Source: Ischnura elegans (lineage: Eukaryota > Arthropoda > Insecta > Odonata > Coenagrionidae). Taken from it: a stretch of 64,000 bases of DNA. The first letter of the stretch is position 1; the number at the start of each line of letters is the position of its first letter. Location: the NCBI RefSeq assembly GCF_921293095.1, contig NC_060251.1, positions 63,939,585 through 64,003,584 of the forward strand, written 5' to 3'. The notes beneath the pieces are model-generated. The model searched no databases and was not told the origin of the DNA. It saw nothing but the letters and a program-made list of their open reading frames with translations. Positions 17,397-63,846 of this stretch are shown here, one piece after another. The translations under genes and the position numbers were made by a program.

Positions 17397-17665
17397 TTTA
17401 AAGTATACCGGGACTAGCGACGGTGATAGCCTTACGGAGTCACCCGCAGAGCACAAACTTTGCGAAAAATCCACAGAGAAAAACGCATTCGCCCATACCA
17501 GGATTCGAACCCGGATCCTCCGTTTACCGGTCAGGTGCTTTAGCCAGTTAAGCTACTGAGACATCCTTCTCCCCGTTGGAAATTTAAGGACTTCACCGGA
17601 CAAGGTGGTATAGACTGTTGAACATATGATGCCACAAGCAGTCCAAATCGTGCGTGAATTTCCAA
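17397..17665 (-). mobile_element. tRNA-derived SINE, family S1
   Basis: The best-preserved minus-strand S1 copy. The head has TTAACTGGCTAAAGCACC (A box) and GGATCCGGGTTCGAATCC (B box), at about 17555-17490. The body reads into TTTTCGCAAAGTTTGTGC and CTAGTCCCGGTATAC down to about 17400. The 5' flank to about 17660 (ACCTTGTCCGGTGAAGTCC) is shared with the copy at 49.8 kb. Confidence 0.75.
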
Positions 17666-34622: not shown

Positions 34623-34711
34623 GACTTCTACTACTTCTTTTAAGTGTTATAAGGAGAAATTAACTACCAAGAAGCCTTATAGTGGAATATCGATCGTTTT
34701 GATTTTCGGAT

Positions 34712-35242
34712 GAGAAAGTAAAGGAAAGGTGCTATTTCGCTCTCGTCCGACCGCACCTTGAATATGCAGCGAGCATATGGGATCCGGTGCAGAAAGACTT
34801 AATCCGCGAACTGAATAAAATTCAAAGGAAGGCTGCGCGTTTCGTCAAATACTGCTACGGGCGTACAGACAGTGTTACCCAGATGTTAGGCGAGTTAGGC
34901 TGGGAGCCGTTGGAGACTCGGAGGCTGCGCGCTAGGCTTAGATTGCTTGAACAATTGAGAATGGATATCTTTATGAGCGACACAGAGAACATAATATTAG
35001 AGCCACACTATATTTCCAGGTCCGATAGAAGTGATAAATTAAGAGAGATGTTTTGCCGAACGGATAGATATGCGAATTCGTTTTTCCCCCGAACCATAAA
35101 GGACTTTAATAAACGCTAGTCCAAACTTCGTTTGAGCACTTAATTTTTTTTTTAGCTGTAAACGGCTGGTGTCCTAACACCCCCTGCCACACGCCTTTTA
35201 GGCGGCTTGCGGGGTGTTATGTAGATGTAGATGTACATCACA
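34712..35242 (+). pseudogene. CR1-like LINE, best 3' copy
   Basis: An open frame from 34712 to the stop at 35117-35119 reads EKVKERCYFALVRPHLEYAA, then SIWDPVQKDLIRELNKIQRK, ARFVKYCYG, MLGELGWEPLETRRLRARL and, at the end, SFFPRTIKDFNKR. The R-P-x-L-E-Y-A-x-x-I-W-x-P motif and the C-terminal F-P-R-T-I-x-x-W/F-N form are the hallmarks of the region after the reverse-transcriptase fingers/palm in CR1/L2-like LINEs. The 3' UTR includes CCTAACACCCCCTGCC and ends in (ATGTAG)n. It is 5'-truncated, so it cannot be active even though this segment is open. Confidence 0.85.
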
Positions 35243-40390: not shown

Positions 40391-41499
40391 TGACGCGGGG
40401 AAACCCAAAAATAATTTTATTTTACACGCGGATACCATCTTTGACATTTTTCATGATCTGAACTTCTCATATGCAAATTTCTCTTTATTTGTTGTATATA
40501 AAAATGTAGGCGAAATACCACATAAAATAACCTCAATTTTCAACATGATACCGTAAGCAATCACGAATGTAGACAAAGCACGGCCGATCGAGTCCTCATA
40601 ACGAACCCCTCTGACGCTGATACGATAATTTTCATGGGTATTTTTTTCCATCGGATTCTAACTTCCTCCTACCTACCCATCCCACATCACTCGAATATTT
40701 TCACGAGCCAAACAAACGCATTTCCGCAGCGCGTCTCATCATAAAAAAAAGGCCGTAATCACTTCTTTCTCTTCGTCAGACGCTTCGCCCCACGATGTTC
40801 TCAAGACAACGAACGGACGGAAACGTGAATCTCATGAATGATATTTTTTAGGATACTACTTTGCGGTCGATATAACCTCAAGTTTTCAACGTGATAGCGT
40901 TAGCAAATACGAATATTGACAAAACCGGCCGATCGAGCGTAATTTGAGCTTCCTCATAATCAATCTTCCTTGTCCCATATACGATAATTTTCACGTTTTT
41001 TTTTCAATTATATTCTACCTCCCCAATTATAATTCTAGAAAACCCAAAAATAATTCTGTACTACACATGATTAATACTGGTGAAATTTTTCATACTCTAA
41101 TTTTCTCAGATTTAAATTTCTTTATATTCCTATTATTTCCTCATAATCAATCTTCTCTGCTCCATATACGATTATTTTCACGTTTTTTCAATTATATTCA
41201 ACCTTCCCAATTATAATTCTTGAAAACCCAAAAATAATTCTGCATTACACATATGAACACCACCGGTGAAATTTTTCATTCTCTAATTTTATCAGATTTA
41301 AATTCCTTTATATTACTATCCCTTCCTCATAATCAATCTTCTCTGTCACCTATACGATTATTTTCACGGTTTTTCCAATTATATTCGACCCTCCCAATTA
41401 TGACTCTGGAAAACCCAAAAATAATACTCGTAGTCTTCCGTGGCGTTCAAAATTCGTTTTTCGGGTTTTCGCCGCGTTTTGCTGTCAGAGGTGACGACA

Positions 41500-45404: not shown

Positions 45405-45515
45405 CAAAACAAACACCCGTGCCCCGGTAGGGATCACTTACCCAAGTGGGAGTCGAACCCTCGACCTTAGGTTTGGTGAGCGATGACTTTACCTCACCGA
45501 CACCGAGGCCGGCAC
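45405..45515 (-). mobile_element. tRNA-derived SINE, family S2
   Basis: On the minus strand: GTGCCGGCCTCGGTGTCGG, then GGTCGAGGGTTCGACTCCC (B box) and a CCCTACCGGGGC end. It is tRNA-like, but the anticodon arm cannot be folded reliably. It sits in the 3' region of gene 1, inside the inverted repeat, so it inserted after the flanking arms or with them. Confidence 0.55.
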
Positions 45516-45675: not shown

Positions 45676-46440
45676 TCACATCTGCGGTCGGCATCTTCTC
45701 CTGGAGTCACGAGCGCAGTTAGTGCTATCCTTCAAGAAGTTCCTGCCCTCAACAAAGCTGAATGGTACAATAAACCCTTCAACTCTCGGAAAGTACAACG
45801 CGCTTTCGCCAACTCTGATCCCTTCCCTGTCTCCGCCAAACCTCACGTGGCGATCCCGACCGATCCCATGATTCCCGACAAACATGGCGTAATTCACGTC
45901 TTTCAGTGCGAAGCGTATCCCGTCGAATTCCGGAAGTAACTCAGCCTCTCCTGACTCCACCTTGCTTCTCACCAAGTTGAGATGGATGTTTCCGAACCTT
46001 TTCCCCTTAGTGGAGTAGCACAACGTGGAGTTGTGTGACAAGATGAACGTATTGTCTGCGGCTTCGTAGCTAACACCTTCGGTCTCGACACGGTCGAATT
46101 GCGAGACGCACTCGGCGTCTTTGGTGGAGTCATGTGTCGTATTCACGAAGATGCTACTCCACGTGGTTTCTGGGAAGTAGTCAATGAAGGTACAGAAAGC
46201 GTCCTGGTCAGGAAATGAAGCTTTGGTGCACAGCAAACCGGCCCCTGGCGAGGAAAAGTTCACAGGAGGTTTCCAGATAGCGTCCTGTTCAGCTCGTGAG
46301 GGAGCTATCCCACGAACACCGCTGTAATCCAGCTTCACAATCACGTCATGCTTACGTAATTCCTGCGCCTCTACAGCATTACCGAAGAGTAGGTCGACCA
46401 GTATGAGTACTGAGTTAATAGTCACCATCTTAAACTTCAT
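45676..46440 (-). CDS. Secreted protein of unknown family, gene 1
   Basis: An uninterrupted 254-codon gene. The first 25 residues form a signal peptide (hydrophobic core INSVLILVDLLFG, likely cleaved near VEA-Q), so the product should be secreted. The mature part has six cysteines (71, 83, 111, 141, 242, 250) and three N-glycosylation sites (N61-FS, N100-TT, N137-ST). It is clearly paralogous to gene 2 at 61801-62568. Shared blocks are KLDYSGVRG, PPxNFSSPGxGLLCTK, FPxQDAxC, FVNTTH, DAECVxQFDRV, HNSTxCYST, DVNYxM, ALYFP/AVYFP and the RCRP end. No transmembrane segment beyond the signal is seen. The start is the first ATG (46438-46440), with a second in-frame ATG four codons later. An initiator-like TCAGTC lies about 55 nt upstream. 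The gene is more GC-rich than its surroundings and sits in the spacer of a long inverted repeat. I do not recognise the family and assign no function. Confidence 0.85.
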   Translation of the reverse strand: MKFKMVTINSVLILVDLLFGNAVEAQELRKHDVIVKLDYSGVRGIAPSRAEQDAIWKPPVNFSSPGAGLLCTKASFPDQDAFCTFIDYFPETTWSSIFVNTTHDSTKDAECVSQFDRVETEGVSYEAADNTFILSHNSTLCYSTKGKRFGNIHLNLVRSKVESGEAELLPEFDGIRFALKDVNYAMFVGNHGIGRDRHVRFGGDREGIRVGESALYFPRVEGFIVPFSFVEGRNFLKDSTNCARDSRRRCRPQM

Positions 46441-46491
46441 GCTATCCCCAATTTATCTCCCGGTGTCAACAGAGGTCAAAGAAGCGCAGGC

Positions 46492-46497
46492 GACTGA
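46492..46497 (-). promoter_or_regulatory. Initiator-like element of gene 1
   Basis: TCAGTC, within TCAGTCGCC, matches the arthropod initiator consensus TCAGTY and lies about 52-57 nt upstream of the ATG. The same nine bases occur upstream of gene 2. No TATA box is seen about 30 nt further upstream. A DPE-like TGACA lies at about +28. Confidence 0.45.
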
Positions 46498-46662
46498 GGT
46501 TGCAAGACAACTGGTTTTCTCCCTCGCTGTTTGTGCGCTAATATGCAAGTCTCTCCCCCCTCCTGCACGTGACCCCGAGGATGAAATACCGCCTGAGAGG
46601 TCGGATCCTTCCCGATCTACCGATCTTTTTTTCTAGGAAATATTATTTTCCTTGAATTCATT

Positions 46663-46735
46663 TGCGATTTCTGCTGCTAGGGGGGAGGGCAGCTGCCCCC
46701 TCCTGCCCCTCGCTGGGTACACCCATGCTTCTATC
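46663..46735. repeat. GC-rich MITE scrap
   Basis: GGGGGAGGGCAGCTGCCCCC then CCCCTCGCTGGGTAC resembles an inner/end piece of G-run hAT MITEs such as 50662-50938. No partner end was located. Confidence 0.35.
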
Positions 46736-47042
46736 CTTCCATAAATGCATATTCTTCTTCCGGGGAATTGAATAATGCCCATTGATCAGAGGTGCCACAG
46801 AACAGAGTTTTCACTGTACTTGCATTTGAATACGAAATTCCTTGAAAGAAAACACACTACCTGGCCGAAAGAATTGTTCCACTAATGAAAAAAGGCGATT
46901 ACTCCTACTTATATGGGGAAAGGTTTCCCAAATAGAGTTATCATATAAGAATCGTGCGGTTTCAGTAATTCATAGGAAAATAGTAACGATAGAGTGTCAA
47001 TTACATTTCAGAGGTTACTCTATTCCTACTTGAGTGCTTTGA

Positions 47043-47459
47043 AAAGTAGAATCTTTGAAAGTAATTATTATTTGTTTTATTAATGTACCGGTTAAGACAG
47101 GTTAACTTGGAATTTTTTTAGAATCAATATAGCCTTTCCCATGTTCTCCTCCCCATAATGAATCTCTCTCTTTAATTTCAAGTAATATATACTCAATTGC
47201 ATTCCATTTATGAATCCTTTTCTCTTCTTTCCTAACTGTCCCCTTGAAAATGGATTTTTAAACTGGCTCCCCGATTAGTACTTTCGCCATCTACACCCTC
47301 AGTGTACCTTGAATACCTGCCATAGCGATTTCCTCACCTCCTAACCTTTAAGAATGCTCAATTTTTCGACTCTGATAGAAAGTATTTCATCCCCACTCAT
47401 GTTTATAGGATATTCATCGCAGGCAATCGGAATGAGTCAACTCATGGCCAAAGTTTATT
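47043..47459 (-). repeat. Long inverted repeat, right arm
   Basis: Inverted partner of 44913-45332, with the same inner (AGTAGAATCT) and outer (GGCCAAAGTTTA) limits. The spacer of about 1.7 kb contains gene 1, a SINE and a MITE scrap. Flanking target duplications are not evident. Confidence 0.85.
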
Positions 47460-48025
47460 AAAAGGCCGTAAAAATATAAATATTTGTTACAACTATGATT
47501 TTAATGTAACTTGGCGATGATATAGGGCTAAATTAGATTTGTTCCTCAATATTTTAAAATTGAGACCAATTCTATATATGCAACAGCGAGCATCACATTC
47601 AAAAGCGATACTTTTCGATTGACCCTTTGCTGAAAACCTTGACGACCAAAATGGCAACAAATGTAAAACAACACAGCGTATTCAGTAAGAAATTATCTTT
47701 GATATATTCCGAAAAAAAATATATATTACGGTGATATTTTAGTCTTCTCCAGATGTTTAAGTAATGTTTTGATAACGAAAATATAACTTGCTATAATTTT
47801 AAAAAATTTAGTTTGTAACTGATTAAGAATTTCCAGAGAATTATTTTCTATATTTTGTGCATTCGTTGCAATGCTTTACCCTTAAAATGAACTTTCACAC
47901 ACATTTCTTCAGTTTTCAACAGTGGCTAAAATCTCTCGTCAAGCACGGATAGAAAAATGGTAATATTTTCACGGAATTCGACATACTGAGAATATCCCGC
48001 CATTTTTTCGGGTCAAAAGAAGTTT
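47460..48025. other. AT-rich gene-free spacer
   Basis: Nothing recognised. Confidence 0.4.
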
Positions 48026-49118
48026 GGCGATTCTACCAGAAAGTGTCAATTTCAAGTCCCTCTAGATCTGTAATGAAATTGCTTAAGTTAAACAAAATTT
48101 TTTAAATTTATTTTTAAGGTATATTTTTTAACACTTTTATGTAGTTATTACTTAATTTTATCATATACTGATTTGTTAAAATACATATATGTACATTGAT
48201 TCTCATTCCCCTGCCATGTCCCTATATCATATAATCAGATTTAAGTCCAAAAAAGAAAATGTGTAGCCTTTTTATATTTGTAGCATATTTTATTTATGAT
48301 TTATAACTTATAAATATTACTAATTTCATATTCCCTATGTGTTTTTTACATATTTAGTTATTTAAAAAAAATATTTGCAATGTCCCTCTGGGAAATATCA
48401 TTCCCCTGTTCAAATTTGAATTTCCCGCTCGAAGAAGAAGAATCTTCATTTAGTAGTGTTTGGGAGGGAATTACTGTTGTATGGCTTGTGCTCAGAAACT
48501 GTAACTCCACAAGTGGCCATTTTGACAAGTATCAAAATTTTGGTATTCATGTTTGTCGAATAAATGCTGTGATTGTTTTTATTCTGTCTCATTCCCCTAT
48601 CAACAACAACCAGATAATTGTGCACAGTTGTTTATTTGCTCTGATATGTATTTATTGCATTGATATACATCTGTTTATTGTCATATGTTACAGGGTTCTA
48701 TCTGTTTCCAGTTTGTCTAAATTTAAGTTAACCTAGAAATTTCTCATTCCCCTGGCTTTCATTCCCCTGCCAAAAACGTGACAGGGGAATGAGAATAACA
48801 CAGGGTAATAAGACGGTATAAAGGTATTAACACAGGGCATTAAGATGATAAGGGAAGTAAAGAATTTGTTAAGAAATGACTTAATAATGGCAAAATGTGT
48901 CATCATTGACCGAGTTCTCATTCCCCTGTTAAGACATTTCATTCCCACGCTGTAAAAAAATTAAATTTTGGTAGTTCTGTGACACTTGCTGTTTTTTCCT
49001 TTTGTGTGTGTCTTTATCATTGCATATCTGACATCAAAAAAATTTTGGTGAAAAATTACTCAGTTTTAGTTTTAGTGAAATCAGCATCTTCAAATTGACA
49101 CTTTCTGGTAGAATCGCC
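48026..49118. mobile_element. TIR element with repeated CATTCCCCT motifs (1.09 kb)
   Basis: 31-bp inverted ends (left GGCGATTCTACCAGAAAG from 48026, right ending 49118) differ at one position. Inside, the motif (T)CTCATTCCCCTG or its core CATTCCCCT occurs at 48201, 48399, 48587, 48742, 48757 and 48916 on the plus strand and at 48782 on the minus strand, with a degenerate copy near 48936. The plus-strand frame at 48380-48736 (118 codons) has no recognisable domain. Multiple dispersed internal binding-type repeats fit a non-autonomous DNA transposon. Ends and superfamily are unassigned and no target duplication is clear. Confidence 0.65.
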
Positions 49119-49699
49119 CAGTTAGAGATAAATGTTTAGGTGTCACATATTTACATTTCCAGGGCTTAAAATGATTCTTTGAAAGGAAATAGCTGAGCAG
49201 AATCTACCAACCGCGGAGGTTTTACCCTAAAGGCAATGAGCGTAGTCGAAGTTCTTTTTACCATTAATAATTCAATCCTAAGTAGATTTATTAGTGTTTT
49301 TCTACATATCAAATGGGTACTTTTCGAGTTTTTCGAATGTAAAATAAACGTATATTTGGTACAAACTGTTTTATAAAAAAAAACAATGGTCTTTTTTATC
49401 GATTTATCGATCTTTCGAACCAAATTTCGATTTTCTTAAATAGTCAAGCTAATTACGGCTAAAAATCGATTTGACAGCCACTTTTTCCAACACTACATGG
49501 TTGCATGAGGTGATAGCTAGCCTTTCCTTCGAATTGAGAGGTTGCTTTTGCACACTATTGCCCTTCAACAGCCCTCCCAAGAGATCGCCAGGTGTCTTTG
49601 TGATTCCTGGATCCTTCTCAGTTATTTGGAGCTTGCGATATGAAGAGGACCCATGAATTCCCTCATTCGATCTTTTTTCGCGACAAATTACTCGCATCG
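49119..49699. other. Gene-free spacer
   Basis: No gene or repeat recognised. The minus-strand frame from 49449 has no domain. Confidence 0.4.
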
Positions 49700-49960
49700 A
49701 TTTAAAGTATTCCGGGACCAACCACGGTGATAAATTTACCGAGTAACCCAGAATGCACAAATTGTGCGAAAATACCACAGAGAAAAATATTCGTCTATGC
49801 TAGGATTCGAAACCAAATTCCCCGATTTCCGGTCGAGAGCTTTAGTCACCGAGGCGTCGCGACGCGTCGTTCCCAGGAATGGAAATTTGTGGAAATTACC
49901 GGACAAGAGAGTCTGGTTTGCTTAGCACATTATGGACTGCTAGTCACTTAAGCACTCGGA
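49700..49960 (-). mobile_element. tRNA-derived SINE, family S1
   Basis: In minus orientation: head 49860-49795 with a degenerate A box (GTGACTAAAGCTCTCG) and B box (GGTTTCGAATCC), body with TTTTCGCACAATTTGTGC, and TGGTCCCGGAATAC at the low-coordinate end. The 5' flank ACTCTCTTGTCCGGTAATTTCC is shared with the 17.4 kb copy. Confidence 0.7.
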
Positions 49961-50007
49961 TTTTAAAACCAACTCCCCGCTTCGTAGTTGCGTAACCTTA
50001 CTACCTC

Positions 50008-50150
50008 AGTCTCCCATGAATATCTCCCATTGAAATTTCCTCTCCTCGCTTACCTTGCTTAACATATCGGCGCTGATAGAAAATATTTATCTCAAACTCA
50101 TGTTTACAGCATATTAATCGCAGGTAATCGGAATGAGCCAACTCATGGCT
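50008..50150 (-). repeat. Partial copy of the inverted-repeat arm
   Basis: CATGAATATCTCCC then CGCTGATAGAAAATATT, AATCGCAGGTAATCGGAATG and AACTCATGGC match the outer third of the arms at 44913 and 47459. There is no gene next to it. Confidence 0.65.
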
Positions 50151-50207
50151 AACATTAAAAGTCAACGAACCGCAATCATGATGACTTCCCTATTCAGTTA
50201 TTTTCTA

Positions 50208-50520
50208 TTTTCCCTATTCAAAAACCAGTTTCAATTGCATGACCTTTGGGTGAGAGCTAAAAATGCTCCACGTCCGTGCCGTAAACGGTATGAGACGTCT
50301 CGACTTCTATCAAATAAATAAATCCACATCTATATGCTACCCTGCAAGCCGCTTAAAAAGGCGTGTGGTGGAGTGTATTTTTTTATATTTTCCCTATTCA
50401 CAAACCAGTTTCAATTGTATGACCTTAAGGTGAGAGCTGAAAATGCTCCACGTCCGTGCCGTAAACGGTGCATCTATATGCTACCCCACAAGCCGCTTAA
50501 AAAGGCGTGTGGCGGGGTTT
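50208..50520. repeat. Tandem duplication spanning a LINE 3' end
   Basis: 50208-50387 and 50388-50520 share TTTTCCCTATTCA, CCAGTTTCAATTG, GCTCCACGTCCGTGCC and GCCGCTTAAAAAGGCGTGTG. The first unit has an extra stretch of about 45 bp (ATGAGACGTCTCGACTTC...). The duplication includes both host flank and the CR1-like 3' tip, so it arose after the LINE inserted. Confidence 0.7.
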
Positions 50521-51165
50521 ATTGGGACACTAGCCATTTATGTATAATAAGGTAATGCTCTAACGAAATTACGACAAGCATTTATTAAAATCGTTTATTT
50601 CTCGGGGGGAAAACAAATTCCCATGCCTCCCATTCCGTTCGGCAAAATATTTCTCTTAATGCAGGCGCGCAGTTAGGAAGGCTGGGGAGGGGGGGGGGGG
50701 GTTAAGGCGCAACTAATACTGAGGGTACGAAGACGGGAGATGCGGGTGTCCTCCCTCAGAAATTTTTTAAGATAAATGGTTCAAAATGGTGATTTTTACG
50801 GCTTTCTGAGGGATATGAGGGATATTTCCTTGCACTTATATATTGGTAATAGTATTAGTAAAATGGATAAAATTTTAAAATTTCTCTGAGTTCTGGGGGG
50901 AAGGTTTATCACCCAAAATCCCCCTCGCTGCGCCACTGCCTTAGTGTACCGTTTCTGTCGGACCTTGAAATATGATGGGTTCTAATAAGATGTTCTCTGA
51001 GTCGCCGTTAAAGATATCTATTCTCAATCGCTCAAGAAATGTTAGTCGACCGCGCAGCCTCGGAGTCTCCCGTCCTAATTCGCTTAACATCTGTGTAACG
51101 CTTGCTTTACGCCCGTAGCAGTTTTTGACGAGTCTCACCCAGCTTTCCGTTGAATTTTATTAACC
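50470..51165 (-). pseudogene. CR1-like LINE fossil interrupted by a MITE
   Basis: In minus orientation: VNKIQRKA, LVKNCYGRKASVTQMLSELG and RLRGRLTFLERLRIDIF from 51163 down to about 50950, then the 3' UTR. A 277-bp hAT MITE (50662-50938) is inserted in the region corresponding to the C-terminal R-S-D-R-S-D-K-L-R-E segment. The 5' side is truncated at about 51165. Confidence 0.8.
50662..50938. mobile_element. hAT-type MITE nested in a CR1-like LINE (277 bp)
   Basis: Left CAGGCGCGCAG, right complement CAGTGGCGCAGCGAGG. The flanks TCTTAATG (50654-50661) and CCTTAGTG (50939-50946) match at 6 of 8 bases, as expected for an aged 8-bp duplication. Removing it restores continuity of the LINE. A 17-nt G run lies near the left end. 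Confidence 0.8.
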
Positions 51166-51175
51166 CCTTCCACTT

Positions 51176-54100
51176 CCATTAATTTTCTGAATACCGTGCT
51201 CGTAACCTCTACATATTTTTTTCTGTGGTTTTCTTTTAAATTATAGGTAGTAAAATGACGTTTTGTAATCAATGTAGCACCTTGAAACAAAATGTGATTA
51301 TAAAACATGGAGAACACAGCTACCGCTACTCGAATAAAATCATTTTAATCGTTCCAATGCATCATGTTTCATTAAATATCAATTATTCATGTATACTATG
51401 AATGTTTTAACATTTGTAAGCTTTCAAATTAATTATATTGTTTCTATAAATAGTCTTAACACTTTGCGTGCCAAGGGCATAATATTACGTCCTGCTAATC
51501 CTTCTGAGGATTGCCATGGACGTAATATTACGTCTATCTATTTCATTGACTTTGTTTGCGTGAAGCTGTAATGTTTCGCCCATGGAACTTCCCTAGTTTA
51601 CTGCTTAGTGGTTCTGCTATTTCAAAAAACAACTGCACGATGGAAAAAGAGTTCTTTTAATGTCTTGAGGACGAAAAGTCCTCTGTAGCTACCGGCACCC
51701 TTATCTGTCATTATTGAGTATACTACTGTTTTCAGTGTCATCTGTCTTGCGACAAAAGATGACTGTAAGTATTTCTTGGCATAAGAGATTTGTTTTGTTC
51801 AAAATGGTTAGTATATACATTGGGGACAAGTGTCGTTTTTGTGATATCTATCATACAGGATGTTTCCTTTCGATTAAGCCTATGAGTCCATGGCATGACT
51901 ATGATTATTATGGAAGAGAGAGCGAGAGTATTTATTCAATGGCCATTAGTGTGATGGTCCCTATTAAAGAATTGAGGCAAGTCAATCATCTTATTTATAT
52001 TGATTGTGGATAGTGGTGAGAGGATATTGTCTGAGAGCCAGATACCTGTTTGTGCCTGCTGCAGTATCATGATTGTATAAAGGAATTGACTCCCACATTC
52101 TAGCCACTCAGAACCCTAGCTAAGGGATTTATGCTTTTATGTGAAATGACTAATTGTAAATCTATGAAATAAGACAGCCAATTACTTCTTGATGTGCTAT
52201 AGATATATATTGTTCCATGTAACATTTCGAGACCATTTATTGTTTCTGAGATTACAATTTTAATGTTCTCATAAGGTGAGGTGAGGCTAACCTATTTTCA
52301 TTTGAATGTGTATCGTTAATTTATGTAACGATCGAATCTGATTGAAAATTATTGGTCTGAGAGCCCTATAAATACTTAGGAGGAGGAGAGAGATGAAAGA
52401 GACAGTCTTGTGTGAGGGAACTTATGAATGTATATGACCCTTTTGTATTAACATAAGAAGTATTTCAGGGAAAATATTGGATAAAGATTTAGCTTGGAAG
52501 CTAATAAATATTTTATGTCCCTACATGATTCCAGCTCAAAGAGCTCTTGTAGTACGAATGCATTTGAAGGTATATTACTAAACCACATCAACCACTATCC
52601 CTATATAAGTTAGTGAAAATTGTACATGGAATACCTGCCTAAATCTAGATATATTGTGCACTGCAATTTTATGGGCATGGCAGCTACTGGTAGTGACAAT
52701 AATTTGGGACTTGGCCATCCCTCTGTCAGCAGAGAAGTTGAGGAGGTTACAGAAGCATAGAATTCTCCTCCCATATTGACCAAAGATATATAATTCCCAT
52801 CAATAGAAAATGAGCAGAGAAGAGTAATATAAAATTGAGCATGAATTGCTGCTGATGTAGATGCCCATGAATTTTTGGAACAAATTGTGATGAGCCCATT
52901 ACTGTTCACATAGCATTTTCCAACAAATGTATACTGTTGGAGAATAATCAAACCAACATTGTAATTTATTTTAATAATTTATCATGGATTAGACCTTGAC
53001 TCTGTAAATTATTCTCTTGAGTATTTCTAAATCATCATTACCTTACATGCCAGTCCTTCTCAAATTAATTGGTGATAGTCGAGGTATTCCTACAAATAGG
53101 CCTAACACAGTTAATAGGTATTTATGCATTCACAATAAAGGATCCAGTTCCTTTCGTTAAATTTCCTGCATTATAATATGGCATGATGTAAGTAACCGAT
53201 TAATGGAGATGTTGCTCTGGATGTTCATCAACTTTACCTAGGCTGTTTCCATTAGTATGGGATCAGAAACGTAGCATTGAAAAGAATTTGGTGATAATGC
53301 CACTCTTCTATTCATAATACAAACTTTTACCAAATTACAGCTCCCCACCCCCTGTAATTAAATGATTCATATTCGCTATATCATGAAACCCATTCTACAT
53401 CCACAGCTCAAGTCTCTTGTAACTACTCTCATCCCATATGCTATCTAAACCCACTCAGAAGCATATTAATAACATGCTTGTGAAACAAGCTCTTAAACAA
53501 TTTGAAACGTGATGGTAACTGATACCACCTCCAGAACTACGGTTGCATTTCGTTATTCTTTATAGTTACTAAATAATTACAGGTAAGCTCAAAGGAAATA
53601 AAGTAAGAGAGTATCATTTCTTAGTCATTCCTATTTTATTTAACATTAATTTGCAAGCATCAATGTTTCCAGATTATCAGTTATGTCGATACATATATGG
53701 AATCAATCAGCCATGCATAGGGAAATGAAAGGTGCTTGGGAGAGTGGATATCAGTGTTCATTGTTTGGTATAAATTTGGAAAAATAATCATCTGGTACAT
53801 AATTTAGCATACATTGTATGATATTAATAATATATTGGAAGTAATGACCTTGATTTTTTTAAAGTATGCAAAAGTATTTTTTTAAACTCCTTGCATCTAA
53901 AAGAAAGAATAATTTTTATATCATATCTGTATCCTTAAGCACCGCATATATTAAAACAAGTGTAATGAATAATAGGTGGCTTAGGTAACCCACACCACCA
54001 CTGGCCCCAGACTGGAATACTATGTGGCAGGCCAAGTACCCCTGAAACTTATTAAACTGAAGCCCATAAGCAAATTATAAAGTCTATTGAGAGGTGCCTG

Positions 54101-55051
54101 GGAGTTCTTAACTCTAGGTTCAGATGATTGCTGAGACATTGAGTGCTGGAGTGTACACCAATAAAATCAGGATTGATAGTTAATTCTTGTGTTGTACTTC
54201 ATAATATGTGTGTAGGGGCTGGTTTTCTCTTCCCAGATGAGGCTGATTATTATGGAGATCCCAGCTCTTGCAGAGTCCCTAATTCTTGGAAGAGGCATAT
54301 TAAACAAGGCCAGAACTATTAGACAAGCGATTATTAACAGGTTACCTAATGCATTGGTAAATTACCAATTGATACCCTACCATTGCTTTTGTTGGTGGTC
54401 AAACTACGGTTTTCCACCTTAAAATTAATCATGGGATCCCTCGTAGAAGGGATACCCTGTAGTTGCCACCAACCTCATCAGAATGGTCTAAAATGAGAAA
54501 AGAAATATTACGAATGGGTCATGTTTCATCCATTATTTTTTCATGCATTTTTCTGTTACTTGCATAAGACATATAATGTCTTTCACTAGGTAGAAATTTC
54601 CCTTAACAATTATCACTGCTTGGGTCTCTTAACCTTCTTGATTGTGAGGTACTTCAGGATAAAAGTAGAACAGTCATCACTATAGCTCAGTTTATATCAA
54701 TTGCCACCCATTCAGGCTGTGCTTCCTTTTTCTTAGGAACGGTAGTAAGAAAGTGATATTTTTAGGTGTGCTGATTACTTTAGATGCTGCAAATTTGCTA
54801 CCTATATAATATTATAGCGTGATTGATTTTTAAGAATCCAAAATTATGAGGTAGAAACTGCTTCACTTGACTTTGTTCATAATTTAAAAATTCCCAAGGT
54901 ATCTCTTAAATTGAAACTACTACAAAATGAAGAAGATTTGAATTTATTCAATAAAAATATGAACTTAATGTCACTTCTAAACTAAAAAGTTAGGTGTACT
55001 TATATAAGTTAGCGACAAATGTTGAGGCGCATTTCGTCAGTACCATAACTC
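51176..55051. other. Gene-free stretch of 3.9 kb
   Basis: AT-rich, with no supportable gene. Near 51476-51534 a GGCATAATATTACGTCC and the 16-bp palindrome GACGTAATATTACGTC lie close together. A frame at 51714-52013 contains ...NHLIYIDCG, faintly like the N-H-x-x-Y-x-D region of piggyBac transposases. That is too weak to call. The context CCCTATAAATAC near 52363 resembles a TATA box. An unseen host exon cannot be excluded. Confidence 0.35.
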
Positions 55052-55811
55052 TTAAGGTACGTTTTCATGAACGCGTTTCAGGCGAACCGACGCGAAAGCG
55101 AAATTTTCAGCCAATCAGAAGCTCGGATTTCTTCGTGTGATATCGCGTACGTTCGCCTAGCTTCGCGTCTCCCGAGATGAAATATGTTCAACTTTCGACG
55201 CGTGGGACGCGTAGAATCTCAAACATGGCCGACCAGCGAGGTTTCGTTGATGAAGTTATCATTTCGGAAACCCGGGTAATTTGGTAGAAATGATTTTGTT
55301 TTTATTATTTGTGATGGCGATAAAGTTTTAGTTTTATTTACGTTCATTTTTCTGTTTATTTCTGCTTTACATTGCAATGTTATCCGTAAGCCGGTGCATC
55401 AAAGACAATGATTGAACAGCGTATTATCATGGATATTAAAGCTGTTAGGAGATGTTTGTGTATTACGACACATAAAAACCTTAATTGGAGGTATTCTTGA
55501 GGCATAATCATTCGCGATCATGTTGAATGACGTGATTAAAGTCGTCATACTAGACGCAATCCATGCTAAGGATATCACCCAGCACGTTAAAATCACCTCT
55601 AGATCGATGTAAAAAGCGTACAAACAAAGTTTTCTTGCGCATATGCACTAGATATGGATATGGAGTAACTACTTAGTACAATTGTGTGCATCAAGTATTA
55701 CTCTTAAGCTTACAAAGGGAAAGTTTAATCACATCTTATTCACATTTCAACGCAAAGGTTAATTATGAACATTAATAAAATATTACTGTGTTTGTGTAGG
55801 CACTTGTTATG

Positions 55812-55890
55812 GCAACCGGTGTAGCCCAGTGGTTAGCGCCCAACGCTACCATGCGGAGGGCCCACGTTCGATGCTGATAGCAGTAGTTTT
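55812..55890 (+). mobile_element. tRNA-derived SINE, family S3, nested
   Basis: CCGGTGTAGCCCAGTGGTTAG (A box TAGCCCAGTGG, given here with its lead-in), then GCGGAGGGCCCACGTTCGAT (B box region) and a poly-T run. It is tRNA-like but with a mispaired TC arm, so not a real tRNA gene. It lies inside the Harbinger element. Confidence 0.55.
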
Positions 55891-56194
55891 TTTTTTTTTT
55901 TACTTTTTTATGTATATTTTTGGCATAAACTTACGTTTAACTATTAATTTTGTGATTTAAAATCATAAGAGTGTTTTCTGGATTGAAAATATTTCACATG
56001 TGCACGCTACGTATGTTTTATTATCTTTTGATTTTGATAGTTTTTATCGAACTGCTGTGGCCATTTCGGTATCAATTACCAAACCTGTTTGATATAATTT
56101 ATCAAATTGGATTGGTAATTGTTACTAAATTTTGCAATGAGCCATATGACGACCGAAAATTTTGATAAATTTCATCAGAATTCGATAGTTCTAA

Positions 56195-56425
56195 CTAAAC
56201 CATTTCTGGGGACATTCTTAAGTAATTAAAAAATGACTCGCGGTCGTTAAGCCTCATCTCTTGGAGGAGATGATGGTAGTCTCCCTGCCTTCTGCGTTCC
56301 TCAAATATTGGGCGAACCCACCACCTTTTTCTTGCATATCGCCGTCTTCTTAGTAAAACAAGGCCCAATAAGGCATTAAACCTCCATTCCATTTGTACAG
56401 GATTCAATGGCAATACTGCATCCAT
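56195..56425 (-). pseudogene. Harbinger transposase N-terminus, truncated
   Basis: The 76-codon frame contains RRYARKRWWVRPIFEERRRQ and, toward the end, LLQEMRLNDRESFFNYLRMS-PEM. This is the conserved N-terminal region of HARBI1-like Harbinger nucleases, in which (R)WWVRP is followed by L-x-x-D-x-x-x-F-x-x-x-L-R-M. A stop follows directly after PEMV and the catalytic DDE domain is missing from the element, so it is an internal deletion derivative. Confidence 0.85.
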
Positions 56426-56660
56426 TTCTTCCCTTCAAATATTTTCGCAGAAATACACTCCAACTCATATATCTGAAAGTTAGTTTGCAACCACGGTCGT
56501 GTCGTTTCTTTTTTTATAATTTCTTCTTTGCCGTAGATGTCGCGCAAGCACATCCTACGCGCAGGTTCGCTTTCGCTTGCATGTGAACGGTTCACGCGAA
56601 TACGTGACGCGTATCGTCGCGCGCGTGCGCCTCTGACGCGTCTATGAAAACGTACCTTTA

Positions 56661-57974
56661 AATGTTAAGGCCAGGATACAAATTGTGAACATTGAAGTCA
56701 GGGTTGCAACGTAATGATAACAGTCCGTTGTACATAGATTCTTATTTTTATCTATTTTGAGGGGTTTAGTTCTTCACCTTATTTTCCGTCGTCTTAATAC
56801 CCTGTTACCAGCTCTTATCCCGTAAAGTTATCCTTTCTTATCTACAGATAGCAAATTACGCGTCTTCGAATGTTTACGCGGCGTAACCACGTAAACGGAA
56901 TCTTTCGTCTTCGCGACCGCGTAAAGAGTTACTGAATAGCCCTGCAGACCACTAAAAACATAATAACATCTCACCAATAACAATATTAACGTGTCTCATG
57001 AGATGAATCGGAAACATAGGCCAAGACACATAAAATGGCATTGAACTCACTGCGCTGCTTAACATAGGCTAAAAGTTATTGCACAATTACGTTGAAAATT
57101 GAGCCTATTGGCCCCATTCTACGGTACCCTGGTTTTCCGCCAAAAGAAACTATCACCGCGCGCTCGTTGTTTAGAACGCACCTCCGTTACGGATGCCATT
57201 CTAAAAGCTCCGCATAGCACGTCACCTTTCGGAAGTCAATACGAAGACGAGACGAAATGGGAAGGTTTGAAAATGTTCCACAAGAAATACCAGGTTTTTT
57301 CAACCAAAATTGGCCGTGAAAACAAAATGTGTTGCACTCACCTCGTAAATACTTAGACTACAAAGAAAAGCTGAACTTCAACCCTAATGATCGGGGCTGT
57401 AGATGGGAAAAAATGTATGCGGTACTCACCAAAAGTTGCCAACAGCTGAACATGTATCATACATTCGGCCGCGATTTAAATGTCAAACTCCAACTCTTAC
57501 ACTAGTTCCAAGTTGTGCCACGAGATAACTCTGAAAAAGTAAATAATCATTTCCGATTATTCTTTCAGAAATCTATTGGACAATTTACAGTAGGGCTATT
57601 TTTCACAGGTTTAAAAAGGTAGTCTAAGCGGAACGCTTATAACGTGTTTGGGTTTTAGGGGGTACGCCGTACCTGCCCAACTACAGCATTGCTAATGATT
57701 AAAAATAAGGGGGTGAGAAACCAAGGGGTACAAGTGATTTTTTTCCCAAGAGAATTAGGTAAAGTAAATTTTTTGAAGAAATACACAAAAAATGGTTGCC
57801 AAGGGACACGAATGAGTCTCAATTCTGTGCTGACTTCGAGTGCAAAATCAAATGCTTTACTAAATATCTGACTGATCTCGTTTTTTTGTGTACACCTAAT
57901 TTCTGTATCAATCTCTGCATGGAAAAAGAAATGACTTTACACCTTGGCTTCCAAAAATTAACAACAAAGTGTTC
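56661..57974. other. Gene-free stretch
   Basis: Nothing recognised; the frame at 57099-57356 has no known domain. Confidence 0.4.
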
Positions 57975-58290
57975 GTTCTAAAAATACGAAAAAGCCATTT
58001 TATTGAGCTAAATTAATTTTTTCAACTCATTGTGGAAGATGAATGCTGTAGACGCATTAGTTTTCCCTAGGCTGAGTTGTAAAGTTAACTAAGTTGACAA
58101 AACGGCTAATTTTACGGTACGCGCAGTCATTTATTGTACAGGCGTGTCTACATTATTTATTTTTTCATAAAACAAAACATAAATTAGAATTTATAATATG
58201 TTCCGTAAAACGACGTGTAATACATTATTTTAGCATGCAATTAAGCCCATATATAAATTTGCAAAATACAGTGGCACATCATTTTGACAC
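57975..58290 (-). repeat. Family D element, partial copy 2
   Basis: Inverted match to 5565-5870. Shared strings, read on the minus strand, include GATGTGCCACTGTATTTTGC at the end, AATTAGCCGTTTTGTCAAC, CTAGGGAAAACTA and AAAATGGCTTTTTCGTATTT. The second end is not present. Confidence 0.65.
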
Positions 58291-58674
58291 CGACAGTGGG
58301 GGCAGTTGCTGAAAGCACAAATCCCTCTACGTCGCTAAATATTTTTAGTTCATCAAACGAAGAATCACTGGCAATTACATTATAACGTTTTTATTTCACC
58401 AGCTGAGTAATGCTTAAAAATAATCGATGAAAATCTAAAAGCCGCCTGTATACGCATATCAAGCCACAGACTAATTACTGCTACGAGGCATTGCATACCA
58501 ACAAAAAGTAATGAGCCGCTCCTCCCAAAATTTCGATCTTAATCCGTCCCTGACAGTACTGTTGGCATTAGAAGCTATTTTTTCTTGATGATAACACCGT
58601 GATGCTTCTTCCGTTGCAGGTACTTAGTCGAAAGTGTCACATGAGACCACTGCCTTTTAATTTAATGCAATGAC

Positions 58675-58870
58675 TTGATCCATGGGTTTTTCTTTTTAAT
58701 AGGAAAATCCACCAAACTCGTTGACACATTAATGGTTGATGCCGGGTTTTGCTATTTAGCGGGCCTTCGTCGCTTCTATAGCGGAGAGGTGTTTATCCCG
58801 TCCCTCCCTTCCAACCCTATCCCTACCCAAGAGGCGTCCTCGGGCTCCTATCGCGGCGGCGCACAGAGTC
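58675..58870 (+). repeat. Dispersed repeat family C, copy 3
   Basis: TAGGAAAATCCACCAAA and, later, GGCTCCTATCGCGGCGGCGC match copies at 6.4 and 32.2 kb. The plus-strand frame of 148 codons starting here runs through the repeat and is not considered a gene. Confidence 0.5.
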
Positions 58871-61224
58871 TTCGAAAGATATCTTTATTATTTAACATTC
58901 TTGAGGATTTTCTCTCACAGTTCTCTCGGAATTTCCTCATTTCTATGTTCCTGGCCTTCAATGCTTCACCCGCTAAAACTCCAATTGGAAAAAAAGATTC
59001 TTTGCCAATTTCTGTTCCATGTATGAGTGTACCATGTCCACTTTATGCACCATGGGCGGCATGTCATACCAACCACATAGCTCGGTGTATAGCTCAGCTG
59101 TTTCCATGCAATAATGACTGAAGGCTTGATTATTTATCTCATAGCCGGTATAGGGATTTAAATATCACTGAAAGTCGAAGGATAAGTCTTTAATCGATAC
59201 CTGTCATGAAAATTGCAAATCACATTTTTAATTGCATTTCATGCATCTAAAGTATTTGTTCGCAGAGTTTCCAAAATTATGGAAACAGGTCCAATATTTC
59301 TTACTAATTTATAATAATTTTAAACTTACACGTAATTTCTTGTCTGAAATTAAATCCTGAATTAAAACTCCACCGTTAAAAGTATGATGATTGAGATTAA
59401 TTAATGATTATTTTTACACATTGCATATATTCGCTAACTGTGCATGCATGGTAATCATTTGCACTCACTAGATGTGAGAGGGAGATATTGATATACTTCA
59501 GGAGGGAATTTCAATTTCTTCTGCAACCAGCTTTTGAACGTCTATTTGATATGCTCATCTGTCCTCGAGCTTTGATTCCATTTTCTCAGGTATTTCGGGA
59601 AAAAATTCCTCGCATAGAGCGCATCAGAATATTTTTGGCATGATTGATTTCATTCAGTCGAAATCTTGTCACCAAATATTCTACGACATATTCCTTCTTT
59701 TTGCTAATGAATATTATTTTCTGTCTGTATTTTTCTTGTACACCGCAAGGTACCTATTTACGGCACCCACAATTCAAATCTAGCAGGTGTATTTACGGTT
59801 GAAACGATGAATGTGATTTTTAAAAGTTGTATTTTTTTAACCAATAAAAAATCGGAAATGATGAGTTGAAATTGAATAAAATATATACAGACATATATAG
59901 AGTTATCTCTGATTTTCCGGCTTATCCTGAAATTTGAATGCCAAGGCAAACCAAGTGCTTCAATTATCTGGGCAGGAGAAGCTTCTCGAGTTGGCAGAGT
60001 TAACACAGTTCGGAGCTAATCAATTTTTCACTAAGCAAATCATTAAATTAAACTGAGTGGGAAATATTCACCACATCCATGCAATGGTCATGGTGAGGAA
60101 GGCCATCATCCTCATCCAGTTATTATATAAGAAAAAAGTGCTCTACAAGATGCACGCACCCTAGGTGGGTTTAGACGAATTTTTCCTATCCTATCTACGT
60201 CTACGAGCTGTTGAAATGATCCTGTGTACAATTCTTGGCGGCACTGGGGCGGCACTGGGGCGGCACTGGGGCGGCAAGGGGATTAGGGAGCATTTATTTC
60301 TCCTTGCGCCAAGACCTTATATTCGGAATAATGTGCAGACAACGCTGTATAGCATGTGAGGGATCTCTTCTTTATAAAAATATAAGGAAATTTTTGTAGA
60401 GAAAAGCATCTAGTGGTTACTGTAAGATCTCGCATAGTGACTTAAGTAGTCGCTTTTGATCACTCCGAATTTGTCTCAGCCCTCATTGGTTTCATGAATA
60501 TCTGAAGGAGAGTGTACGTACGAGAAGTTTTCATACGATTGGCGTCAAATACTTTAAGTATGAAATCTCACTGTATGTAGAATTATGTTTAGTATACACA
60601 TTGAGAGTTCGACCACCGATACAGGAATATTTGAGCGATAATGCCACTCGGTCTTCCGCCGGCAGGCGGCCAGCCGCCCTCAGCGGAGCGGTTCACCGCT
60701 CAATTTTAAACCTCCTAGATGTCGGATAGACAAGTATAGGCAAGAATTTTTTTCTACGTCTCGTTGTATATACACTTCTTAAGGATTCTGCATAGGAATC
60801 TTCGAGGAGCACGGAGGAGCACAAAACTATATTGACACATTTTACTAAAAATAGGCCAAAAATTGCTACCATTATAAAAAATTAAATATGGTTTTTAAAA
60901 AATCTGAAACGAACAAAACTTACGATTATATTGTGCAAAAGTATTAAAGCTTACCGTATAAAATTTCACAGATGAATTCCATGAAATTAAAACAGTCATT
61001 TATTATGTTCAATTTCCCTAAAATCGACTATATCTATGTGTCAGGCGTTTTGGGCTAAACATGCCCATAATTCCCACACGTTAACAAAATAATCACACAG
61101 ACCAATCAGGTATGAAATATTGTGGGCCATATCCTGCAGAATCCGAATACATAATTCAAAAATTCCTCGTAAAAAGTCGAAGAAATGAGTTTTGGCCAGC
61201 TTTTCTCGATTTGGGACCACTCTT
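58871..61224. other. Gene-free stretch of about 2.3 kb
   Basis: AT-rich; no gene recognised. A minisatellite of nearly four copies of the 11-mer GGCGGCACTGG lies at 60237-60278. Confidence 0.4.
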
Positions 61225-61320
61225 TCCATTTTCCTTCCCATCCAAACCCCTCCCCGGGAGCGCGGGCGTATAAGTCTCTGGCTTGGTTCCCGGCCCCGGT
61301 TCGTTGTAACCCTCAGAGGA
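61225..61320 (+). repeat. Family C fragment
   Basis: TTCCCATCC, CCCCGGGAGCGCGGGCGTAT and CCCGGCCCCGGTTCGTTG correspond to the second half of family C copy 1 (6490-6560). Confidence 0.45.
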
Positions 61321-61453
61321 CCCACCTTGGGTCCTGATTCTCGACTCAACTAGACTCCTTCTGACACTTTTCGACACTTTCTGAAACAGACTTCGGCTCA
61401 TTTGCTAAGCATTAAATAAAATTCACGTTTTTAGCAACACCATAATATGGCAC

Positions 61454-61459
61454 TTTATT
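61454..61459 (-). promoter_or_regulatory. Putative polyadenylation signal of gene 2
   Basis: AATAAA on the minus strand, 342 nt past the stop codon of gene 2. The intervening 3' region contains two degenerate copies of a block of about 100 bp (61456-61550, 61570-61660) and a short tandem duplication ATGGCTTTATATTAGAC (61664-61704). Confidence 0.35.
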
Positions 61460-61800
61460 TGTTTTCCCGACAACCAAATTTTTTAATAACTTTTAGTACA
61501 TTTTAGATTATAAGAATATGAAGCAGATGAAGTTTTAAATTCTGAAAGGCGCGTGATTTTTTTGCGCTTTATACATTTCCCCGCAATCCAAAAGTTTTAG
61601 ATACCTTTTAATACATGTTAGGTAACAAGCAATTAGAAGATGAAGCTTAAAATTAAAGAAGCAATATGGCTTTATATTAGACTTTTATGGCTTTATATTA
61701 GACATGCGTCATTATCCACACACACTAAAACACGCAACTGTTACACTCGTCGACTCTGTAGAATATCTATCAATTAACCGGCTCCAAGTGTTCCAGACAT

Positions 61801-62568
61801 CTACTTTCCCGGACGGCAACGACCTCTGGAATCGAGCCGGCAATTCTGGACCACCGTTTTTCTCCCGCCAACGATGCCGCAGACGCCTTTGGCTTTTTCC
61901 CAGGGAAAATACACCGCGCCGTCATCGACTTGGACATCATCTTCGTCAACTTGCTGCCCATCGATCTCCTCGCTGCGGTAGATAACCCTGTCTGTGCAGA
62001 TGACATTCTTGATCCCTTCGATCATGATGTAGTTCACGTCTCCCATGGCGAACTTAAGACCGTCGACGTCTGGTAGGGCATCCACCTTGCCGATTTCCAC
62101 CGAGTGCCTCACGAGGTGAAGATGGGAGTAGATGAACCTAACCCCATTGGTGGAGTAGCACACAGTGGAGTTGTGGGCGAAGGTGACCGTCTCCTCCGTA
62201 ACGCCGAAGTCACCGTGGGGATCGACGCGATCAAATTGCGTGACGCACTCCGCGTCTTCCGCCGAGCCGTGCGTCGTGTTCACGAAAATGTTGGTCCACG
62301 TGATGTTTTCGAAACCGTGACTGAAGGCGCAGTATGCGTCCTGGTTGGGAAACGAGGATTTCGTGCAAAGCAAACCTTTCCCCGGCGAGGAAAAGTTTAT
62401 GGGTGGCGCCCACGACGCTCCCGGTTTGACTCCAGCGACAGAATCCCCGCGAACGCCGCTGTAATCTAACTTGATGACCACGTGGTGCTCCACCTCCTCA
62501 GTGCTGACGCTGAGTAATATTGCCAGGAGAAAGAGTGTCCCGATGACAGTGTGTATCTTGCGATCCAT
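61801..62568 (-). CDS. Secreted protein of unknown family, gene 2
   Basis: An uninterrupted gene of 255 codons. I take the ATG at 62566-62568 as the start. The open frame continues upstream to a TTG at 62652, but there is no other ATG, and the chosen Met begins a clean signal peptide (MDRKIHTVIGTLFLLAILLS, likely cleaved near VST-E). The mature part has eight cysteines (68, 80, 108, 137, 191, 230, 243, 251), six of which align with gene 1. N-glycosylation sites are N58-FS, N88-IT, N97-TT and N133-ST. Alignment with gene 1 runs over the full length at roughly half identity, and length differs by one residue. The extra pair C191/C230 could form an additional disulphide absent from gene 1. The conserved reading frame, glycosylation sites and cysteines despite strong divergence indicate purifying selection. 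A TCAGTCGCC initiator lies about 75 nt upstream of the ATG. Function unknown; extracellular role inferred. Confidence 0.87.
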   Translation of the reverse strand: MDRKIHTVIGTLFLLAILLSVSTEEVEHHVVIKLDYSGVRGDSVAGVKPGASWAPPINFSSPGKGLLCTKSSFPNQDAYCAFSHGFENITWTNIFVNTTHGSAEDAECVTQFDRVDPHGDFGVTEETVTFAHNSTVCYSTNGVRFIYSHLHLVRHSVEIGKVDALPDVDGLKFAMGDVNYIMIEGIKNVICTDRVIYRSEEIDGQQVDEDDVQVDDGAVYFPWEKAKGVCGIVGGRKTVVQNCRLDSRGRCRPGK

Positions 62569-62642: not shown

Positions 62643-62648
62643 GACTGA
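62643..62648 (-). promoter_or_regulatory. Initiator-like element of gene 2
   Basis: TCAGTC within TCAGTCGCC, identical over nine bases to the element upstream of gene 1. No clear TATA box; the region about 30 nt upstream contains a near-palindrome GTGATATCGCAAATATCAC. Confidence 0.45.
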
Positions 62649-63112: not shown

Positions 63113-63435
63113 TTTTTCAACAATCTTAAGATTGGTTTGACGCAGCTCTCCATTCCTCTCTCCTATCTGCTATCATTTTCATAGCTACGTATTTCTTCTC
63201 TTTTACATCCTGTATAGCCTGTCCTACGTAACTCATTCGGGGCCGTCCCTTGCCCCTCCTCCCTTCCACATGTCCTTCGACGATTGCTTGCATCAGGTCA
63301 TCGTGTCTCATTATCTGACCAGCTAAGTTGTCCCGTCTCTTCCCTAACGTTTTTAGATGACTTCTATTTTCTCCCACTCTTCTAAGCATTCCTTATTACT
63401 AACACGGTCGATCCATTGTATCCTCATCATTCTTC
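63113..63435 (-). pseudogene. RTE-like LINE 3' end
   Basis: In minus orientation: MMRIQWIDRVSNKE, a +1 shift, then MLRRVGENRSHLKTLGKRRD, LAGQIMRHDDLMQAIVEGHV, EGRRGKGRPRMSYVGQ and KEKKYVAMKMIADRREEW to the stop at 63126-63128, then a (ATGATG)-type tail. It is the best-preserved copy of the family also seen at 1195-1545 and 34485-34622, and is 5'-truncated. Confidence 0.82.
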
Positions 63436-63846
63436 GGTTGCACCACCAACGGAGGTACAAAAGAATGATTACCAAACAACGGTTTCACTTGGTGATGAAG
63501 AAAACCAAGGAAGAGAAAAGAGCTTTCATCCTGAAATTTTTTTCCTGAATCCTGATTTTTTTCACACAGCGAAAAATGATGGATCGATGAAGAATATCGA
63601 CGAAGAAGAAGTGTATGGGTTATATGGCGAAGGTCTCGATTGTGTGTTAGAATATAATATATTATAAATATTTAAAAGTAGGAGGCGATGAATGCAAATG
63701 AGAAGAAATGCGTTAAAATTATGAGGTTGGTTGATAATAGACATGAATGGAGAGCTTACGCAAACTAATTTCGCCACAGTTCACCAATGACGATGACGAT
63801 TAATCAAAGCTAACCCAGAATATCATCACCCAGCTGTAGATATTCG

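Follow-up and report, generated by a model that had tools for sequence, protein, structure and literature searches.

A large, mostly clustered and probably secreted protein family of the damselfly Ischnura elegans, represented by two single-exon genes on chromosome 6

Two single-exon genes in the window

The stretch of DNA analysed here (hereafter the window) comprises 64,000 nucleotides of Ischnura elegans contig NC_060251.1, positions 63,939,585 to 64,003,584, and contains two genes, here called A and B, that encode members of a large and apparently unnamed protein family. Both genes lie on the minus strand, 15.4 kb apart, and their stop-to-stop frames (258 codons for A, 290 for B) are the two longest in the list of open frames. 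Chance open frames were rejected as an explanation: when 40 copies of the window were generated with an order-2 Markov model, their longest frame was 227, and none of the 40 reached the length of A. A tblastn search of the window with both proteins (E up to 1) returned no matches beyond themselves and each other. An initial annotation, made from the sequence alone, had described A and B as the sole apparent host coding genes in the 64 kb, which agrees with the open-frame list, although small exons could escape such a list.

Aligned over 245 codons, the two proteins share 117 identical residues (48%), and BLASTP gives 45% identity over 262 columns with E 1e-71. All six cysteines of A are also present in B, which has two more, and three N-glycosylation sequons are common to both proteins, with four in total in B. 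The description of two complete genes on one strand, aligned end to end at about half identity and sharing six cysteines and three glycosylation sites, was therefore confirmed, and A and B are full-length paralogues. That both genes are intronless, as had also been proposed, is suggested by complete frames from ATG to stop and by a TCAGT shortly upstream of each start codon (Table 1), a motif that serves as an initiator in arthropods.

Table 1. Positions of genes A and B, their upstream sites and other elements in the window
Feature	Position	Strand	Description
Gene A	45676..46440	-	complete single-exon coding sequence, 254 aa; hydrophobic leader and domain with 6 Cys, 3 NxS/T
Gene B	61801..62568	-	complete single-exon coding sequence, 255 aa; hydrophobic leader and domain with 8 Cys, 4 NxS/T
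TCAGT initiator-like site of A	46493..46497	-	57 nt upstream of ATG; CCTCAGTCGCC
TCAGT initiator-like site of B	62644..62648	-	80 nt upstream of ATG; GCTCAGTCGCC
Short element	45430-45515	-	downstream of gene A; GGTTCGACTCC
Presumed retrotransposon tail	34703-35116	+	
Presumed retrotransposon tail	63150-63460	-	
Tandem array	40949-41425		period 186, 2.6 copies, 87% matches
Candidate tRNA	17490-17562	-	29.4 bits against an Rfam cut-off of 29

Distribution of the family in the genome

Searches of the species' own genome covered 1,722,721,009 bases in 110 contigs, of which C4 to C12 are called here by chromosome number; the published description of assembly ioIscEleg1.1 gives 1,723 Mb in 110 scaffolds (PMC9975421). 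Limited to E values of at most 0.001, the search with B as the query found 23 places, of which seven lie on chromosome 6, six on chromosome 7, nine on chromosome 4 (111.7 Mb) and one on chromosome 10. The seven chromosome 6 copies form a cluster at 63.985-64.073 Mb, all on the minus strand, so that A and B, first regarded as a pair, are instead two of seven neighbouring copies. The nearest copy of B is 89% identical (C6:64016427) and starts 12.8 kb past the end of the window.

Other queries were run with an E limit of 0.1. Gene A yielded 16 matches, a chromosome 7 member 22, a divergent chromosome 7 member 32, a chromosome 12 member 41, a chromosome 11 member 35 and a chromosome 10 member only 3, counts that include weak rows such as one on chromosome 8 (E 0.017). 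Merged without the chromosome 11 query, these searches define 64 places on seven scaffolds, 45 of them spanning at least 525 nt, in a list that omits fragments found only by profile (one on chromosome 10 and some on chromosome 4). The chromosome 11 query adds, by hand count, 11 places, 8 on chromosome 11 and 3 on C16. The family first described as having two members is thus real, but its size exceeds 60 places.

An iterated profile was run on 864 open frames from 28 of 44 loci, the remainder being overlapping stretches, and recognised 35 as belonging to the family, some of these being one place fetched twice. Identity to B is just 17-35% for members other than A and the near copy of B, and several copies are interrupted by stops or shortened. 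Intact and broken copies occur together in tandem arrays on several chromosomes, an instance of birth and death of genes.

Two further observations concern recent copies. At loci L025 and L026 on chromosome 4 (G000:C4:111726463-111739122), a neighbouring pair of family genes is repeated at a spacing of exactly 9,469 nt with near-identical proteins, which indicates that a two-gene block was duplicated recently. On chromosome 6, the copies L006 and L007 (G000:C6:64052831 and 64063698) lie 10,867 nt apart and have identical 219-residue frames; the duplication may be a very recent tandem event or an artefact of the assembly.

Family unity and comparison with known proteins

A profile built from 13 members on chromosomes 4, 6 and 7 matched a profile of eight members from chromosome 12 and the 89.3 Mb region of chromosome 7 with E 2.2e-12; since the match takes in 187 aligned columns and runs almost the full length of the profiles, all of these genes form one superfamily. 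Its signature includes IxLDxSxxRG at the mature N-terminus and four cysteine columns that are filled in each of the 30 members aligned. A further element is the C-terminal loop C..DxRxRCR, whose cysteines are present in 24 and 27 of the 30.

The family had been called unrecognised, and at curated cut-offs Pfam-A offered no match to it: the best E values were 0.27 for full-length A and B, 0.08 for 20 aligned members and 0.17 for ten more divergent ones. A search of PDB sequences left B and the family profiles unmatched and gave A two chance-level rows (E 1.4 and 1.6), and among open-licence papers no title on this family was found. Having matched none of the protein families searched, A and B offer a lead to a kind of protein not described so far. 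As a protein family it appears to be unnamed; entries for it as "uncharacterized protein" very likely exist in databases, given the habits of genome annotation.

Tandem families of secreted orphan proteins are, as a phenomenon, an already known kind. The lineage-specific, tandem, secreted, cysteine-rich families of arthropods, taken as a class, have the same leader, many cysteines and N-glycosylation sites; they likewise form tandem arrays in which intact copies neighbour broken ones, with elevated dN/dS between recent copies. Unlike that class, the I. elegans family has no Pfam match and its copies are spread over several chromosomes.

Predicted structure

The AlphaFold model of B residues 23-255 has a pLDDT of 80.3 and a pTM of 0.79, and a second family model has values of 82.1 and 0.78; both are beta-rich and globular. 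Structural comparison with the PDB gave only matches of Z <4, with unrelated folds mixed, and the absence of a fold from these lists, lipocalins included, does not in itself exclude it. Some PDB beta-sandwich and barrel folds (Asf1-type, PhdC-type split barrel, cardiovirus 2A) have a similar beta arrangement in part of the model.

These models bear on two other accounts of what the family does. In the first, its members would be lipocalin-like carriers with a cup-shaped beta domain that holds a lipid, a pigment or an odour molecule. The low Z scores among mixed folds argue against this, and the GxW motif that lipocalins have near their N-terminus is absent from A and B as read by eye; we consider such carriers quite improbable. 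In the second, the proteins would be secreted structural components of cuticle, egg shell or a glue matrix, with tandem copies raising dosage or providing stage specificity. Tandem arrays, leaders, many cysteines and the conserved basic C-terminal loop would also suit a matrix protein, but repetitive or low-complexity segments were not seen by eye, the models (pTM 0.78-0.79) are those of globular beta-rich domains, and the low identity of most members to B exceeds the divergence that dosage would need. A structural role seems unlikely.

Initiator-like sites, introns and origin

The test for TCAGT covered the upstream DNA of the 15 single-exon copies of the first alignment. In 11 of them the motif occurs no more than 200 nt from the ATG, where 0.14 occurrences would be expected in a stretch of that length. 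The carriers are A, B, six related chromosome 4 copies and three lone copies.

Outside the 88.7 Mb region of chromosome 7, the intact-looking copies (these 15, including A and B, and 10 others read later) encode the hydrophobic start together with the domain in a single frame, with L053 incomplete at its end and a copy at 45.5 Mb on chromosome 10 having a weak leader. Intronless intact copies occur on chromosomes 4, 6, 10, 11 and 12 and at 89.3 and 89.8 Mb on chromosome 7. The five copies at 88.717-88.774 Mb on chromosome 7, by contrast with these, have the leader and the motif (FDFSYIRG and variants) on a separate exon, and all five have a phase-1 intron of 1,284-6,601 nt (G|GTGAGT...TTTCAG|A(T/C)G) after the FDFSYIRG-type motif, with splice sites deduced from conserved DNA. 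Four of the five share a 5' block containing TCAGTTGCC and the donor CAAG|GTATGA; a coding leader sought in this block was not found there, the leader exon lying further down. With an intron in these five copies and none in the other intact ones read here, an intron was gained or lost inside the family.

One account of this pattern traces the single-exon branches back to a single old retrocopy, made from an ancestor that had the intron, like the chromosome 7 genes at 88.7 Mb, and multiplied in tandem afterwards. Intron-bearing relatives with a shared phase-1 intron are present in the same genome, some of them with the upstream block and donor just described, and a full-length retrocopy would retain its TCAGT start. 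However, the intact copies in every other branch read here are intronless, so that a single intron gain on the chromosome 7 branch is the simpler count, and the family tree is unrooted, has very long end branches and leaves 7 of 17 inner branches open. In the alignments, tree and dN/dS runs, the rows from 88.7 Mb (five in three of the alignments, four in another) start with 7-9 intron residues. We consider a retrocopy origin somewhat unlikely; it concerns descent and can be combined with any reading of function. A and B themselves need no retroposition of their own, because both sit in a like-oriented tandem array.

Transfer, the other origin suggested in the initial annotation, found no support: two viral and two prokaryote contig scans, each of which required short peptide pattern matches first, and a phage tblastn search yielded no confirmed relative among these donors. 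A viral origin was rejected on the absence of a relative in viral contigs and on a BFVD search with a chromosome 12 model, which gave 950 matches under an E limit of 10 but none at 0.001 or less. A mobile-element origin was rejected as well, as 30 members have no Pfam match at E <0.08 and dN/dS between A and B is 0.36.

Selection and proposed function

The dN/dS of A and B is 0.361 (bootstrap 0.233-0.521), only roughly known because dS exceeds 1, and is well under 1. A and B are under purifying selection. In 18 chosen pairs of paralogues, a subset of those possible, every dN/dS is below 1 (0.31-0.90). Along the protein, amino-acid change (pN) is greatest in the last or the last but one of the 40-codon windows, and this holds for each of the five recent groups. 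In the chromosome 7 group pN/pS is 0.31-0.51 over the first five windows and 0.87-1.15 over the final four.

Taken together, these observations suggest that A and B belong to a large, unnamed family of secreted, N-glycosylated, disulfide-stapled and beta-rich proteins that may bind variable partners. That they form a family and are secreted is very probable, and the earlier proposal of an extracellular-looking paralogue family is supported. Joined to the variable-binding proposal, the reading is tentative, and we hold it with somewhat less than even confidence; the binding function itself we consider unlikely.

In this preferred reading of a secreted, partner-binding family, each gene would be transcribed from its own short promoter, and the leader would export the protein from the cell. 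The four core cysteines would form two disulfides holding a beta sandwich or barrel, and the C-terminal cysteine pair would tie the basic loop. The conserved start and this loop may be structural or contact a constant partner, while the second half of the domain, which has the highest density of amino-acid changes, would bind a variable outside partner. Of these steps, export by the leader and the cysteine-stapled beta domain are those predicted by the sequence and the model. The setting would most likely be a secretion or body surface in conflict, such as defence, contact with prey or predators, or reproduction.

Several points weigh against this reading. The leaders of A and B were recognised by eye only, and no fold neighbour of the models in the PDB comparison points to a ligand. 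Four chromosome 6 copies at 64.04-64.07 Mb lack the C-terminal cysteine loop, and TCAGT is missing from all three short chromosome 6 copies tested and from the near copy of B, which has TTATT in its place. A clean rise of pN/pS along the protein is seen in only one of the five groups, that of chromosome 7; the highest values fall early in group C4a (2.15) and in the short chromosome 6 group (2.19), group C4b is trendless with its highest value at the start (1.05), and some windows of the B pair have no synonymous change. The pattern is mixed, and relaxed constraint or uneven mutation is therefore an equally good reading of it.

A broader proposal is that these genes make up a superfamily not described before, with some 75 or more loci for secreted beta-domain proteins whose fold is not close to any solved structure, and that in odonates it serves as a rapidly diversifying repertoire for recognition or of effectors. 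We regard this as unlikely; if true, the repertoire would be comparable in kind to the immune or venom repertoires of other animals. Confirmation of the family itself would mean that a large clustered gene family of a model damselfly encodes a domain absent from Pfam and that an early branch of winged insects has an unannotated secreted repertoire. It would also provide a natural series of paralogues, some with an intron and some lacking it, in which to study the birth, breakage and diversification of a tandem secreted family.

Other elements in the window

The candidate tRNA is the window's sole Rfam match at gathering score; ARAGORN found no tRNA in the window, and the match is therefore perhaps a pseudogene or part of a SINE (short interspersed element). 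The short element downstream of gene A looks tRNA-derived by eye and may be a SINE. Two segments, one on each strand, resemble decayed reverse-transcriptase tails of non-LTR (long terminal repeat) retrotransposons, of a kind common in insect genomes. The window also contains one tandem array (Table 1).
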